DNA from: an uncultured Ruminococcus sp. | GTDB lineage: Bacteria; Bacillota; Clostridia; Oscillospirales; Acutalibacteraceae | NCBI GenBank assembly: GCA_902768825.1 | Contig: CACXMR010000003.1 | Coordinates: forward strand, 19,485-83,484 | Reading direction: 5' to 3' | DNA: 64,000 nucleotides | In this document: positions 4,801 to 64,000 of the stretch, piece after piece | How positions within the stretch are numbered: position 1 is the first letter of the stretch | How the letters are laid out: each line of letters starts with the position of its first letter | Position numbers and translations under genes: made by a program | Notes under the pieces: generated by a model | What the model saw: only the letters and a program-made list of their open reading frames with translations | The model's database searches: none | What the model was told of the DNA's origin: nothing

Positions 4801-7083
4801 GCAAAGGGCACGGCTACCATCACAGCCAAGTCCTCAAACGGCAAGACCGCAACGGCAGCTATCACCGTTACGGAGGAATCCACGACAACTCTTGTCAACA
4901 ACTCTTCAATCTCCGCAACAAGCATCACAAAGGGCACAGCAGTCAAGCTGACAGGCGCTGCATCCGGCGGCACCACACCCTACAAGTATGCTTATGTAGT
5001 TCAGACACCTGCCGGCGACTGGTCAGTCCTCAAGGACTATAGCACAGCCACTACACACTCATGGACACCTGCTTCCACAGGCAAGTACACTGTCCAGATC
5101 AAGGTCAAGGATAATGCCGGCACCGTTAAGGTTAAGTCCTTTACACTGAATGTTTCTTCTTCTTCAGCACTTACCAATAACTCCAAGATCTCCGCTACCA
5201 GCGTCACCAAGGGTACTGCAGTCAATATGACCGGCGCAGCAACAGGCGGCACAACCCCCTATAAGTTTGCTTATGTCGTCCAGGCTCCAAACGGCAACTG
5301 GACAGTCCTCAAGGACTACAGCACAGCTACTACCCACACATGGACACCTGCTTCTACAGGCAAGTATACAGTCCAGATCAAGGTTAAGGATAATGCCGGC
5401 ACAGTTAAGGTCAACTCCTTTACGCTGAATGTATCCTCTACTTCGGCTCTTGCAAATAACTCCAAGATCTCAGCTACCAGCATTACCAAGGGTACCACCA
5501 TCACCCTCACGGGCGCAGCTTCCGGCGGCACAACCCCCTATAAGTTTGCTTATGTAGCTCAGACCCCCGCCGGCGAGTGGAAGGTCATCAAAGACTACAG
5601 CACATCTACATCCCACTCCTGGACACCCGCTTCTACCGGCAAATATACAGTCCAGATCAAGGTCAAGGACGCTAAGAATACAGTAGTTGTCAAGTCCTTT
5701 ACCCTCAATGTTTCCTCAGCACTTGTTAATAACTCAAAGATTTCCGCAACAAGCATCGCTAAGGGCACTACAATCAAGCTGACAGGCGCAGCTTCCGGCG
5801 GCACAACCCCCTACAAGTATGCTTATGTTGTCCAGGCTCCTAACGGCAACTGGACAGTCCTCAAGGACTATAGCACAGCAACCACACACTCATGGACTCC
5901 TGCTTCAACAGGCAAGTATACAGTCCAGGTTAAGGTCAAGGACAGCAAGAGCACCGTTAAGGTTAAGTCCTTTACACTTAATGTAAGCGCTGCTATCGTC
6001 AATAAATCCACCATTTCCGCCACAACTATTGGCAAGGGCAGCAGCGTGGTGCTCAAGGGCGCAGCTTCCGGCGGCTCAGGCTACTTCCAGTATGCTTATG
6101 TAGCAAAGGCTCCCAATGGCGAATGGTATGTCCTCAAGAACTACAGCTCAACGGAATCCTACACCTTCAAGCCTGCTTCACTGGGCAAATATACAGTCCA
6201 GATCAAGGTCAAGGACAGCACCGGCGCTGTAAACGTCAAGGAGTTTACTCTCAATGTAAACAATCCTATCGTTAACAACTCAAAGGTTTCTGCAACAAGC
6301 ATTAACAAGGGCGGCAGCGTTACCATGACAGGCGCAGCCTCAGGCGGCACAGGCTACTTCCAGTTTGCTTATGTTGCACAGGCTCCCAACGGAAAGTGGT
6401 ATGTTCTCAAGGACTACAGCTCGGCTGATTCCTACAAGTTTACACCTTCCTCAACCGGCAAGTATACTCTTCAGGTCAAGGCTGAGGACAGCAAGGGCAC
6501 AGTCAGCGTCAAGTCCTTTACTCTCACAGTTTCCGCAGCACTTGTAAACAACTCCAAGATCTCAGCAACCAGCATTACCAAGGGCACAACTCTCAAGCTC
6601 ACAGGCGCAGCTTCCGGCGGCACAACCCCCTACAAGTATGCTTATGTAGCCAAGACTCCCGCTGGCGAGTGGAAGGTTATCAAAGACTACAGCACATCTA
6701 CTTCACACTCCTGGACCCCTGCCATGACCGGCACCTACACTGTTCAGATCAAGGTCAAGGATGCCAAGAACACAGTTGTTGTCAAGTCCTTTACTCTCAA
6801 GGTATCCGCAGCACTTGTCAACAACTCCAAGATTTCCGCAACAAGCATCACCAAGGGCAAGAGCGTTACTATGACCGGTGCGGCAAGCGGCGGCACAAAC
6901 TACTATCAGTATGCCTATGTTGTTCAGTCTCCCAACGGCAACTGGACAGTTCTCAAGGACTATAGTTCAGCAACCACCCACACATGGACACCTGCTTCTT
7001 ATGGTACCTACACCGTACAGGTCAAGGTCAAGGATACAAACGGCACTACTGCTGTCAAGTCCTTTAGCCTCAAGGTGAGCTGA
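1816..7083 (+). CDS. Secreted multidomain alpha-amylase (GH13, BIG2, CBM26, eight C-terminal repeats)
   Basis: A large exported starch-degrading enzyme of 1755 residues. A signal peptide ends near TVSA-ASYS (about residue 43). The GH13 barrel shows DVVFNHT, the nucleophile in DAFRVD (D286), the acid/base in FGEV (E321) and NSHD (D445). Then come two BIG2 domains (about 673-753 and 757-836), a CBM26-like starch-binding module (about 840-935, rich in W and Y), a third BIG2 (938-1020) and eight repeats of 89-93 residues to the C-terminus. The repeats resemble clostridial triple-tyrosine (Y_Y_Y) domains. No dockerin, sortase signal or transmembrane anchor is seen. I chose the ATG at 1816 because AAAGGA precedes it at good spacing; the ATG at 1795 has no close ribosome site. 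The product is inferred to be cell-associated or released, cutting alpha-1,4-glucan. Confidence 0.93.
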   Translation: MSVFSQKFRNTLRKASSWSLAALTAMSCAATLPVLTSTTVSAASYSVDLSNEARGVLYANSRSDFRDESIYFLITTRFYDGDPSNNFRSVSDEEAKNPANDPSWRGDFKGLIEKLDYLKALGFTAIWITPVVQNNSNYDYHGYHASNFNAVDTRYESTGITYQDLIDACHAKGMKVIQDVVFNHTCRNGEEGLNKLGGEVMTNQLSLPWPQMNEVIMSNGAQYDPNNIYHHNTFAGSGDYDNYNAQIMTIADDCFDLETENPVVANYLVDAYKKYIDMGVDAFRVDTARHISRFTMNAAILPKLQAEAERIGNNDFYMFGEVCTRGHDVWYRGVPAISTCFYTWDDTDADKAKWSNTDLANNEALAEACYNNNTSADNQPTSDNAFLNGNDYHQPDYSKRSDMGVIDFQMHWSFENANSAFGTALGEDRYFNDSTWNVVYVNSHDYSPDFCSDKVYTGDTESWAENLSLMFTFRGIPCVYYGTEIEFQKGCPIDKGPKAMLSETGRAYFGDNIEGSLSTTDFGVFEATDGTVKSTLESPLSQHLIRLNRLRQAIPALRKGQYSTEGCSGSSGLAFKRRYTDANVDSFCCVTISGGATFSGVPNGTYVDAVTGDTQNVTGGTLTANCSGKGNLRVYVLSTAKTPAPGRVVPNGSFMGDGGSAVTINGESVSTVKPTGITLSKTSTTILEGETDSVKATITPSGASAAVSWSSSDPSVATVTNGTIKGISKGSATITAKVTDSIKATVSVTVKENTNIVKPTGVTVSPTTLKLTSGESGTLTATVAPSNATDKSVTWTSSDPKVATVADGTVKAVGAGTATITATTSNGLKATASVTVEGPSMTYIDNGVYFQKPSGWGDNINVYMYANDADVGAKWPGTAMKDGGDGIYYYEYTNTTTGLMLVFNDGSHQAPASQGFEFQNKGLYSDSGFVKIIEKPSTVDVTSVSLDKTSATVKKGASVTLTATVSPSNATDKMITWSTSNSSVATVSNGVVTGKAKGTATITAKSSNGKTATAAITVTEESTTTLVNNSSISATSITKGTAVKLTGAASGGTTPYKYAYVVQTPAGDWSVLKDYSTATTHSWTPASTGKYTVQIKVKDNAGTVKVKSFTLNVSSSSALTNNSKISATSVTKGTAVNMTGAATGGTTPYKFAYVVQAPNGNWTVLKDYSTATTHTWTPASTGKYTVQIKVKDNAGTVKVNSFTLNVSSTSALANNSKISATSITKGTTITLTGAASGGTTPYKFAYVAQTPAGEWKVIKDYSTSTSHSWTPASTGKYTVQIKVKDAKNTVVVKSFTLNVSSALVNNSKISATSIAKGTTIKLTGAASGGTTPYKYAYVVQAPNGNWTVLKDYSTATTHSWTPASTGKYTVQVKVKDSKSTVKVKSFTLNVSAAIVNKSTISATTIGKGSSVVLKGAASGGSGYFQYAYVAKAPNGEWYVLKNYSSTESYTFKPASLGKYTVQIKVKDSTGAVNVKEFTLNVNNPIVNNSKVSATSINKGGSVTMTGAASGGTGYFQFAYVAQAPNGKWYVLKDYSSADSYKFTPSSTGKYTLQVKAEDSKGTVSVKSFTLTVSAALVNNSKISATSITKGTTLKLTGAASGGTTPYKYAYVAKTPAGEWKVIKDYSTSTSHSWTPAMTGTYTVQIKVKDAKNTVVVKSFTLKVSAALVNNSKISATSITKGKSVTMTGAASGGTNYYQYAYVVQSPNGNWTVLKDYSSATTHTWTPASYGTYTVQVKVKDTNGTTAVKSFSLKVS
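4891..7080 (+). repeat. Eight in-frame tandem repeats of about 273 bp in the amylase gene
   Basis: Repeat units begin at 4891, 5170, 5449, 5722, 5995, 6268, 6541 and 6814, giving steps of 279, 279 and then 273 bases. Each encodes xVNNSKISATSITKG, GAASGGTTPYKYAYV, LKDYSTATTHSWTP and KVKSFTLNVS or variants. Units 5 and 6 diverge most (GYFQYAYV, YTFKP). All spacings are multiples of three, so the copies expanded by whole domains. Confidence 0.95.
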
Positions 7084-7186: not shown

Positions 7187-7361
7187 ACTCTTATTATGAA
7201 AAGTAATGCTTGCCGCCTGTTGCCTTGGTTGGTGCTTCTGACTTCGTCAGAGGTGTCCACCGGACACCCGCCCCCCGAAAACGCTGTTCGCGTTGTATGT
7301 CATTGAGGCTCTATACTTCAATGTCCGTATGAAGAAAGTATCAACCGCGAGGGTGCAGTAT

Positions 7362-7494
7362 CGGTTTGAACACAGAGCGGAACGGAGTGGAGCGTGCAGC
7401 GCGAATTGGGAGCGGCAGCTTGCCGCTTCGGCTTGAACACAGAGCGGAACGGAGTGGAGCGTGCGGAGCGAATTGGGAGCGGCAGCTTGCCGCC
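7362..7494 (+). repeat. Tandem 67-bp repeat, two copies, with REP-like palindrome
   Basis: Two head-to-tail units (7362-7428, 7429-7494) share GAACACAGAGCGGAACGGAG, TGGAGCGTGC and GCGAATT and end in GGGAGCGGCAGCTTGCCGC, whose last 15 bases are palindromic. Related single copies lie at 24262-24286, 43786-43850 and 63827-63901. The 448-base spacer 7084-7531 otherwise holds a terminator, a promoter and, at about 7262-7286, a degraded CCCCGAAAACGCTGTTCGC module also seen at 37500 and 43245. Confidence 0.85.
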
Positions 7495-24412: not shown

Positions 24413-24529
24413 TTGGTGGCAGATTGTCGGTGACGCTTTCGTATTGATAGTCATTGTGGAGCAATACTTTTGTTTCAGCGTGATAATAGTATCAACCGCA
24501 AGCGTACAGTCATGGTTCGTTTATCTGTC

Positions 24530-24587
24530 ACTGCGAACAGCGTTTTCGGGGTTGTCAGGGGGACTTTTACGCAATAGTCCCCCTGAT
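24530..24587 (-). repeat. GTCAGGGGGAC hairpin module overlapping the clpC stop
   Basis: On the minus strand ATCAGGGGGACT (24587 to 24576), a loop, AGTCCCCCTGAC (24565 to 24554), then AACCCCGAAAACGCTGTT. The same hairpin and tail lie at 37468-37520 and 43211-43262. Here the left arm encodes the last clpC residues (IRGT) and the stop codon (24567-24569) lies in the loop. It may terminate or stabilise the clpC mRNA 3' end, but no U-tract follows. Confidence 0.8.
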
Positions 24588-43210: not shown

Positions 43211-43262
43211 GTCAGGGGGACTTTTGCGAAAAAGTCCCCCTGACAACCCCGAAAACGCTGTT
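43211..43262 (+). repeat. Perfect hairpin module behind htrA
   Basis: GTCAGGGGGACTTTT (43211-43225) and AAAAGTCCCCCTGAC (43230-43244) form a perfect 15-bp stem closed by a GCGA (GNRA) tetraloop, then AACCCCGAAAACGCTGTT. It begins four bases after the htrA stop. Copies sit at the ends of clpC and yfhO. Confidence 0.9.
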
Positions 43263-43450
43263 CGCAGGGAAGAATGTCTGATTTCACAGTTGACTGCTTG
43301 CGGTTCTTAGTAAATTTTCAATCCGCAGAAGCAAAAGCAGCCATACCCGAAAGACTATCACTGCGAAATGTGGTGCGCAGGCTCTGCACCGGGCGCCAAG
43401 CGTCCGCTCCCAATTTTGCGGGGCAGAATGAATAATAATTTAATACTTTG

Positions 43451-46718: not shown

Positions 46719-46770
46719 GACTATAATTCAAAAAGAAAACATTATCACCCAGGCTTTTCGCTCTCTGCTC

Positions 46771-46961
46771 GGCAAGCTGCCGGTCCCGATTATGTTTTGG
46801 AAAGACATATAATAACGGTTCGATAATACTTTTCCAAAACCAATTCGGGAGCGCAGGCTCTGCGCTGGCAAGCTGCCGGTCCCGATTTTGTTTTGGAAAG
46901 ACATATAATAACGGTTTGTTAATACTTTTCCAAAACCAATTCGGGAGCGCAGGCTCTGCGC
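46771..46961. repeat. Tandem 96-bp repeat, two copies, with internal inverted repeat
   Basis: Unit 1 (46771-46866) and unit 2 (46867-46961) differ at few positions. Each has TCCCGATT..GTTTTGGAAAG facing CTTTTCCAAAAC..AATTCGGGA around a 26-base loop, then GGGAGCGCAGGCTCTGCGC. The pair abuts the flippase stop codon at 46963. It fills the space between two converging genes and may terminate both; it looks like a small MITE-like element duplicated through the REP-like palindrome. Confidence 0.9.
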
Positions 46962-62186: not shown

Positions 62187-62606
62187 ATGGTCATATTGTC
62201 TGTTGATTACGGAAGGGTGCGCACAGGAGTGGCAGTGTGCGACAAGGATGAGATAATTGCTTCGCCTGTTGCGGTGATCAAGGAAATACGCCAGGATGTT
62301 CTTGCGGAAAAGATAGCCGCCCTCTGCTCCGAAAGAGGTGCACAGCTCGTTGTGCTGGGTCTGCCAAGGAATATGGACGGCTCGGAGGGTGAGAGTGCAA
62401 GGAATGTCAGGGCTTTTTCCGAAATGCTGAAGGAAAGCACCGGTCTTCCTGTAGTGCTGCAGGACGAAAGAGGCACTACGGTGACGGCCCACGGCTATCT
62501 GAACGGGACAAACACAAGGGGTAAGAAGCGCAAGGCTGTTGTTGACAGTGTTGCCGCTGTAATAATACTTGAAGATTATCTGAGATACAGGAGGAATGGC
62601 TTATGA
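62187..62606 (+). CDS. yqgF: RuvX/YqgF Holliday-junction resolvase or pre-16S rRNA nuclease
   Basis: A 139-residue RNase H-fold nuclease with LSVDYGRVRTGVAVCD (catalytic aspartate), VLGLPRNMDGSEG, LQDERGTTV and VDSVAAVIILEDYL. The family is needed for 16S rRNA 5' processing and named putative resolvase. I chose the ATG at 62187 behind GACGGAGG. Its stop overlaps the next start (ATGA, 62603-62606). Confidence 0.9.
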   Translation: MVILSVDYGRVRTGVAVCDKDEIIASPVAVIKEIRQDVLAEKIAALCSERGAQLVVLGLPRNMDGSEGESARNVRAFSEMLKESTGLPVVLQDERGTTVTAHGYLNGTNTRGKKRKAVVDSVAAVIILEDYLRYRRNGL

Positions 62607-63628
62607 GTGTTCTTCCGAGCCAGAGACTGACCATCGGAGAGTTGTATGTCTCTATGGCTGTGGGATTGATACTTTATCTGCTTCCGGGAGATATAAGAAA
62701 TCAGGTGAGCACTGTCGGAATTTCCGAATTAGCAGTGCTATTGACCGTTCTTGTGGTCACCATCGTTTTTTTGCTTGTTATTAAAAGGTATGAGGCTGTG
62801 GGAGCGGCACTGCTGACTAATTCCGTCATTACTGTCGGCGCCTTTGGCTTTTACGTATTAAACGGCATTCTGTCAAAGGGCAGTGAATTCTGGCCGAGCA
62901 TCTCCATTTATCAGCTCGTAACCATGTTTATTGTATGGGTAGTGCCGTTTCTGTTTACTGTGATAGTGCGGTTGTTCATCAATAACCATCGGGATACCAA
63001 CGACAGCCGTGCAGGCTTTGCAAGGTTCCTTACCCTGAGTCTCAGAGCACTGATGATGATATACATTCTTGTTATCGTGTTTGTGGAGATAATCCCAAAG
63101 GCTCCGGATATGGCTACAAACAGAAGCATACTCTACATCCCGTTTTCACGGCTGCAGGAGTGCATCGATAACGCCGGGGAATGGGGCATCCGCTATATGC
63201 TGTGGAACGGTCTTATTCTGATGCCCCTGAGCTTCAGCCTCATGGTGATGAACCAGAGGATCCGCTGGTGGCACGCACTTTTCATTTCCTTTGCGGCAGG
63301 GCTTACGCTGGAGATATTCCAGTTTGCTCTGAATACGGGCACAGTCTATGTGGATGACCTTTTGCTGTATATTGTCGGCAGTATTGTGGGAATATTGCTC
63401 AAGAGACTGATCGATCTGATACGCTTCAGGATCACAAAGGGGCAGGAGAGACATATGCTGAGTCTTGAATATACTCCCATCAGTGTTCCCGAAAAGCCGG
63501 TGGAGGTATTTGAAGAGGTAGAGGTTTCCGGTGAACAGCTTGTCATCGATGATTTTGATGAGGAGCTTGACAAGACGCTGGAGGATCTGAAGCCCGTGTC
63601 TTTTGTCGAGTCGGATAAGCTTAACTGA
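62603..63628 (+). CDS. VanZ-like membrane protein
   Basis: A 341-residue protein with about eight helices. RWWHALFISFAAGLTLEIFQ and the following TVYVDDLLLYIVGSIVGILL are the VanZ signature; in vancomycin clusters VanZ gives teicoplanin resistance by an unclear envelope effect. The first helices (about 15-110) are extra to the core VanZ. The C-terminal 60 residues are acidic and soluble. It overlaps ruvX by four bases. The last eight codons and stop lie in a 99-bp unit that is triplicated behind the gene. Confidence 0.85.
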   Translation: MSVLPSQRLTIGELYVSMAVGLILYLLPGDIRNQVSTVGISELAVLLTVLVVTIVFLLVIKRYEAVGAALLTNSVITVGAFGFYVLNGILSKGSEFWPSISIYQLVTMFIVWVVPFLFTVIVRLFINNHRDTNDSRAGFARFLTLSLRALMMIYILVIVFVEIIPKAPDMATNRSILYIPFSRLQECIDNAGEWGIRYMLWNGLILMPLSFSLMVMNQRIRWWHALFISFAAGLTLEIFQFALNTGTVYVDDLLLYIVGSIVGILLKRLIDLIRFRITKGQERHMLSLEYTPISVPEKPVEVFEEVEVSGEQLVIDDFDEELDKTLEDLKPVSFVESDKLN

Positions 63629-64000
63629 TACTACTCTCCAATAGAATATACACACATTTTTTGGCAATGCTTGTCGGTGTCCGCAAGAAGAAAGCGGGGA
63701 GCGCAGGCTCTGTGCGTCTTTTGTCGAGTCGGATAAGCTTAACTGATACTACTCTCCAATAGAATATACACATTTTTTTGGCAATGCTTGTCGGTGTCCG
63801 CAAGAAGAAAGCGAGAACTGCGATCAGTGAATGTTTGGTTCGTACACAAAGCGGAACGTAGTGCAGCGTGCAACGCGAACACGGGAGCGCAGGCTCTGCG
63901 CGTCTTTTGTCGAGTCGGATAAGCTTAACTGATACTACTCTCCAATAGAATATACACACATTTTTTGGCAATGCTTGTCGGTGTCCGCAAGAAGAAAGCG
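63598..64000 (+). repeat. 99-bp triplication including the end of the VanZ-like gene
   Basis: Units at 63598-63696, 63716-63813 and 63902-64000 are almost identical (copy 2 lacks two bases in the CACACATTTT run). Each begins GTCTTTTGTCGAGTCGGATA and repeats the last codons of the gene, its stop and the sequence behind. The spacers (19 and 88 bases) both end in the REP-like GGGAGCGCAGGCTCTGYGC; the longer has GCGGAACGTAGTGCAGCGTG as in the 7362 units. The 372 bases after the gene are only this array, which may continue past the window. Confidence 0.95.

Follow-up and report, generated by a model that had tools for sequence, protein, structure and literature searches.

The hairpin ends of IS200/IS605 elements are processed as single strands. 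The spread of REP-like repeats, and the presence of flanking DNA in their clusters, still await an explanation in the field. Tandem clusters of REPs and REPINs that include flanking DNA have already been described (PMC3116915, PMC3733652); as reported for Pseudomonas fluorescens SBW25, the ordered REPIN clusters are tandem repeats of the element together with flanking sequence, and 16 of them are present in that genome (PMC3116915). In Stenotrophomonas maltophilia, TnpA_REP is reported to recognise and cut the single-stranded REP (PMC8266576). The words Firmicutes, Clostridi- and Ruminococc- are absent from the main text on GTAG-tagged REPs (PMC3733652), and a literature search found no description of the hairpin family treated here. 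New are the family itself, its lack of a RAYT (REP-associated tyrosine transposase) and its junctions flush with the hairpin foot, the kind of array itself being not new. A REPIN-like family without RAYT, with many young arrays resolved to the base, renders the duplication step testable apart from RAYT.

The stretch of DNA analysed here, hereafter the window, comprises 64,000 nucleotides from an uncultured Ruminococcus (C3:19485-83484), and its last base is both the end of contig C3 and the end of the array under study. A VanZ-like gene (62603..63628, + strand) forms an open frame of 341 aa, the last codons of which are the start of the duplicated unit; its name comes from the initial annotation (NCBIfam assigns the protein to no family), and relatives of the gene occur in 63 of the 64 genomes of the genus. 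Three near-identical ends of this gene, 99, 98 and 99 bp long, lie within 63598-64000, with a hairpin repeat at both joints, all on the + strand. Copy 1 (63598..63696, 99 bp) is the gene's own end, namely nine codons, the stop and the 68 bases behind it. Hairpin 1 (63697..63715), a bare 19-mer fused straight to copy 1, reads GGGAGCGCAGGCTCTGTGC and ends in CTGTGC; its DNA fold is weak (-3.7 kcal/mol), because one C is T. Copy 2 (63716..63813, 98 bp) is followed by a second junction of 88 bp (63814-63901), composed of 69 extra element bases and then the 19-mer, as opposed to the 19-mer alone at the first junction. This 19-mer is hairpin 2 (GGGAGCGCAGGCTCTGCGC, 63883..63901), the foot of which directly abuts the start of copy 3 (63902..64000, 99 bp). 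A REP-like element of about 110 bp (63791..63901, + strand) begins within copy 2 and ends in hairpin 2, and it matches other contigs of the same genome at 72-84% in the longer hits; the similarity starts at 63791, inside copy 2, and the element at the VanZ-like gene possesses the right hairpin only, the left one being missing.

Compared with copy 1, copy 2 is 97.98% identical, with one small difference in an ACACACA/T tract, and copy 3 is 100% identical. The initial annotation had reported the gene end as present three times with the palindrome at the junctions, and this is confirmed, for the three copies are 98-100% identical and both junctions carry it. It was also right that the gene end was copied together with its stop, but the extent it gave, eight codons and 70 bases, has to be amended: what is found in every copy is nine sense codons in full, TCT to AAC, then the stop TGA and a further 67-68 bases downstream. 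Both junctions are flush at the hairpin foot, with no shared base at the first one as examined by hand. Since contig C3 stops at the end of copy 3, the copy number is a lower bound of at least three.

At the same locus, the nearest relative found (G049, 78% aa) has a single VanZ-like gene end and no such hairpin before the next reading frame. A single gene end is also present in G005, where the remaining 329 bases of the contig contain no such hairpin, and in G044; the triplication was thus not seen in any of the three relatives examined. In G044, a GCGGCA-type hairpin lies on the other strand directly behind the stop (L107), the family having struck the same gap in another species. The earlier impression that the event is recent agrees with the identity of the copies and with the single gene end and hairpin-free gap of G049. 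Concerning the right flank of the array, the neighbour gene of G049 was sought in the own genome, where only repeat-domain relatives were retrieved (best 38% identity), and the flank itself was not found. Elsewhere in the window, a long reading frame contains, at positions 4891-7046, a 273-bp coding repeat eight times over, and the frames there resemble the repeat-domain protein adjoining VanZ in G049.

The palindrome belongs to a dispersed REP-like family, as had been proposed, characterised by a conserved head (CGCGAAWTYGGGA), a covarying 6-bp stem and a GCT loop. In a 464-kb sample of the own genome, made of the window and 20 stretches of 20 kb picked regardless of repeats, 65 hairpins conform to a definition of head GG[GCT][AT], 6-bp stem with at least 5 pairs and GCT loop, against 0 in one shuffle. 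Genome-wide, the 19-mer with up to 2 mismatches has 74 sites, 51 of them exact (reversed-pattern control 0), and in the window the 16-base core gives 8 matches with up to 2 mismatches versus a shuffled mean of 0.03. The loop does not depend on the head condition: when only a perfect 6-bp stem and a 3-base loop are demanded, GCT occurs 63 times, the next loop (bar its complement) 15 times, and 2 are found after shuffling. Covariation is apparent at 78 sites picked by head and loop only, in which 74% of the stem positions are paired, a share that falls to 44% (52% at most) on re-dealing the 3' arms; the pair exchanges comprise G-C for C-G and C-G for A-T. The heads are GGGA in 49, GGGT in 9 and GGCA in 7 of the 65 hairpins, in a search that itself demands GG[GCT][AT], and GGGA in 41, GGGT in 8 and GGCA in 5 of the 63 perfect GCT-loop hairpins with no head condition. 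A CGCGAAWTY motif is conserved upstream, with A at position -4 in 64/65, and the base after the foot is C or T in 50/65.

Many dispersed short hairpins with a conserved head are as expected of REPs, but the GT[AG]G tetranucleotide of REPs is not found at the stem foot, where GGGA, GGGT or GGCA stands instead. The REPIN plan, two inverted hairpins some 100 bp from each other, is recognisable in 14 neighbouring inward-facing pairs of the 464-kb sample, spaced 77-266 bp start to start. At the gathering score, Rfam detects only a tRNA in the window; in five loci searched as well, it gave one weak hit below the threshold. In an array of G049 (L160), the stem switches back and forth between GCGCAG and GCGGCA from unit to unit, with the remainder unchanged, as if hairpin modules had been swapped, and in G005 and the own genome the 27-bp end module occurs alone in tandem in two to four copies (L162, L163, L042, L055). 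Window positions 24528-24586 and 43212-43270 hold 95% complementary copies of a different dispersed repeat, which includes a long inverted repeat (TCAGGGGGACTTTT...).

The VanZ triplication is one of many such arrays. In the window itself, a 96-bp unit with hairpins at both sides is present twice at 46763..46961 (+ strand), and a 67-bp unit ending in a GCGGCA-type hairpin is present twice at 7361..7493 (+ strand). A local direct repeat is found in 13 of the 31 hairpin clusters of the 464-kb sample, and unit lengths across arrays range from 25 to 292 bp. Junctions were surveyed in 72 neighbouring same-strand hairpin pairs from the 464-kb sample, 14 other loci of the own genome and 20 loci of six relatives; being anchored on hairpin pairs, the survey is blind to duplications that avoid hairpins. 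Three pairs were excluded, 16 are non-repeats (the VanZ pair among them, because its 69-base gap lowers the score), 11 are inner copies of longer arrays and 42 are outer repeat pairs.

In 30 of these 42 outer pairs the hairpin's outer foot is exactly where the second copy begins: 21 have an unrelated right flank, hence both edges clean, and 9 are left-flush with a similar right flank. The 12 that are not flush comprise 3 extending beyond the foot and 9 others. The 21 clean pairs correspond to about 17 loci, because some arrays entered the count twice, once from each end (window 46.7 kb, L156), and others supplied several rows each (L160, L167). Together with the flush junctions of the VanZ array, these figures support the initial view that duplication and palindrome go together. 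At the 30 left-flush joints few bases are shared, namely 0 in 15, 1 in 11, 2 in 1, 3 in 2 and 6 in 1. The far edge is variable; it begins with CG in 18 of 29 junctions versus a background of 7.6%, although these edges are not independent, because 11 of the 18 read CGCG and several fall at one same element-internal boundary. At the VanZ array the far edge is GT, not CG. No enrichment of hairpins was found at the far edge, a stem of at least 6 at the foot occurring in 10% vs 9% and at the loop position in 7% vs 7%.

Other repeat families of the genome also duplicate locally, in arrays without the family hairpin. Five further non-coding pairs or arrays stand apart from the hairpin clusters (window 43451, L135:9458, L136:18845, L147:4252, L147:17567); relatives of the family, either variant or truncated, can be made out by eye in window 43451 and L147:4252, and at least three non-coding arrays of the sample lie away from family hairpins. 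The tandem or near-tandem arrays L135:9458-10010, L136:18845-19207 and L147:17567-17973 are non-coding and lack the family hairpin. Coding arrays, with a period that is a multiple of three in a long frame, were set apart by eye, since several hairpin arrays, too, had been flagged by the reading-frame measure of the script.

A helper gene was sought in the 64 genomes of the genus. None passes the NF047646 cut-off for a RAYT, a test in which controls exceeded the cut-off in 1 of 14 genomes. The single Y1 gene of the own genome is an IS200 (158 bits vs a cut-off of 55; 33.9 vs 80 with the RAYT model), that is, an intact IS200-type transposase gene (L068:591-1067) whose stop is followed, 323 bp further downstream, by a family hairpin. 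Among the nine genomes with at least 18 19-mers, seven (G044, G012, G049, G031, G020, G005 and G022) have no match to PF01797; they are 74-89% complete, and the chance that all seven miss a one-copy gene is about 6 in a million if genes are missed at random. The remaining two are G000, with the IS200 gene, and G055, with two PF01797 hits, one with an internal stop and one below the cut-off. The Y1-rich genomes G061, G050 and G046 have no 19-mer, and G060 has 15. The absence of any RAYT over the cut-off, the IS200 nature of the own Y1 gene and the seven repeat-rich genomes without PF01797 led to the rejection of RAYT as the helper. A reverse transcriptase (PF00078) was rejected likewise, since its presence does not track the repeat: it is matched in 33/64 genomes, in the own genome only by two fragments below the cut-off, and among repeat-rich genomes in none of G005, G020 and G031 and once each in G044, G012, G049, G055 and G022. 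Y2/IS91 (PF04986) does not track the repeat either; its search gave a short fragment in 1/64 genomes, with 0 of the 14 control genomes matched and hence no positive control. The family is thus REPIN-like in layout and clustering, but it fails to show a RAYT.

Within the genus, 26 of the 64 genomes contain the 19-mer with up to 1 mismatch; of 300 genomes sampled across the taxonomic family, 4 do, two of which belong to this genus and two of which have a single one-mismatch site. The wide search covered the 19-mer stem type only, and this form is nearly confined to one genus, apparently rumen Ruminococcus. Among the IMG/VR records scanned, the 28-bp end module (CGCGAA...GCGC, L120:4420-4447) is present in one viral contig (IMGVR_UViG_3300037249_000551), directly ahead of a reading frame. 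In a search for the empty site, relatives of the adjacent protein were only 35-45% identical, too distant to show it.

How might the VanZ array have arisen? Its best explanation, to which I would give about an even chance, is a break at the hairpin foot with homology-free joining, followed by unequal recombination. A REP-like, REPIN-like mobile repeat with a small hairpin at its right end sits, in this reading, about 60 bases behind the VanZ-like gene; the DNA would have been broken at the outer foot of the hairpin and the broken end joined, with no guiding homology, to a point within the last codons of the gene. The outcome would be a tandem unit of gene end and element, which unequal recombination between units could enlarge, and an internal loss of (or difference in) 69 bp in unit 1 may have led to the present array. 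What I infer is the breaking and joining step, the enzyme behind it (a hairpin-specific nuclease or a single-strand transposase) and the sequence in which the events took place. A foot break joined without homology is favoured because it explains why the right edge is fixed and the left edge varies. Slippage guided by repeats, one of the two routes envisaged initially, is not favoured, because it needs shared bases and the joints mostly share 0-1. Nor can the direction of spread be read from the copied gene end, as had been hoped: the order of units is uninformative, because unit 1, with the gene's own end, has the shortened element and unit 2 the fuller one. A more specific version, in which a non-RAYT, non-Y1 enzyme cuts the outer foot of the GCT-loop hairpin, joins nearby DNA with a preference for CG and so copies host sequence, gene ends included, in tandem, is rather doubtful; its minimal mobile unit would be the end module of 27-29 bp, seen in tandem repetition in a number of genomes and on one occasion in a viral contig. 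A preference for CG points rather to an enzyme, the absence of any candidate rather away from one.

No special enzyme would be needed if a replicating polymerase left its template at the hairpin foot after copying the hairpin and restarted upstream. Such a template switch, possible though on the unlikely side, would fit the edges at the foot, the failure of the RAYT/Y1, PF00078 and PF04986 searches to find a helper and the short inverted repeats seen by eye in some non-REP arrays (e.g. CTTTTTCGCAAAAG in L135), but it sits poorly with the 0-1 shared bases at 26 of 30 joints, would not predict the CG preference at the far edge (18/29) and finds no counterpart in hairpins enriched there. The other route envisaged initially was insertion with target duplication. 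Long target-site duplications are made by IS1634/IS1549-type elements, and the same 98-99 bp flanks each insert in the VanZ array; even so, an unusually long duplication of about 99 bp is improbable here, given that two inserts would need one same 99-bp target, that the first insert is a bare 19-mer without a left end, that units vary from 25 to 292 bp elsewhere and that what recurs in the 46.7-kb and 27-29-bp arrays is just the element or its end module, no further target being included.

A RAYT that mobilises and multiplies the repeat, as its counterparts do in Pseudomonas and E. coli, would account for the hairpin layout, the inverted pairs and the clusters, and the GCT loop is like that of the S. 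maltophilia REP as described (PMC8266576); the one Y1 gene of the own genome, moreover, has a family hairpin close by. Yet with 0/64 genomes over the cut-off, an own Y1 gene that is IS200, seven of the nine repeat-richest genomes devoid of PF01797 and three Y1-rich genomes devoid of the 19-mer, this reading is very unlikely. Equally slight is the probability of an assembly artefact: copy 3, which matches copy 1 at every base, stops precisely where the contig stops, and contig starts in G044 are concentrated near the repeat (of the 82 exact sites listed, 15 lie no more than 150 bp away, vs 1.4 expected), but copies and inserts differ among themselves and comparable arrays exist at other loci of the own genome and in six relatives. 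Because of that clustering in G044, a cut contig end is the expected effect of such arrays on assembly. Assemblies break at arrays of this kind, and copying can extend to gene ends and promoters that lie behind such repeats.

Set against known systems, the family shares hairpin ends with IS200/IS605, of which the own genome has one copy, and departs from it in the seven repeat-rich genomes without any PF01797 hit. GTAG-tagged REPs bear, as described, a GTAG head (PMC3733652), whereas the Ruminococcus heads are GGGA, GGGT or GGCA. The S. maltophilia REP is likewise a stem-loop with a GCT loop, but is described with a GTAG head (PMC8266576), while the Ruminococcus family has another head and no such transposase over the cut-off. 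The SBW25 REPINs, as reported, have inverted hairpin pairs and tandem clusters, just as this family does; RAYT genes lie beside their clusters, in contrast to the 64 genomes of this genus, where none passes, and their unit is described with flanks on both sides (PMC3116915), whereas the right edge of the Ruminococcus unit is commonly the hairpin foot.
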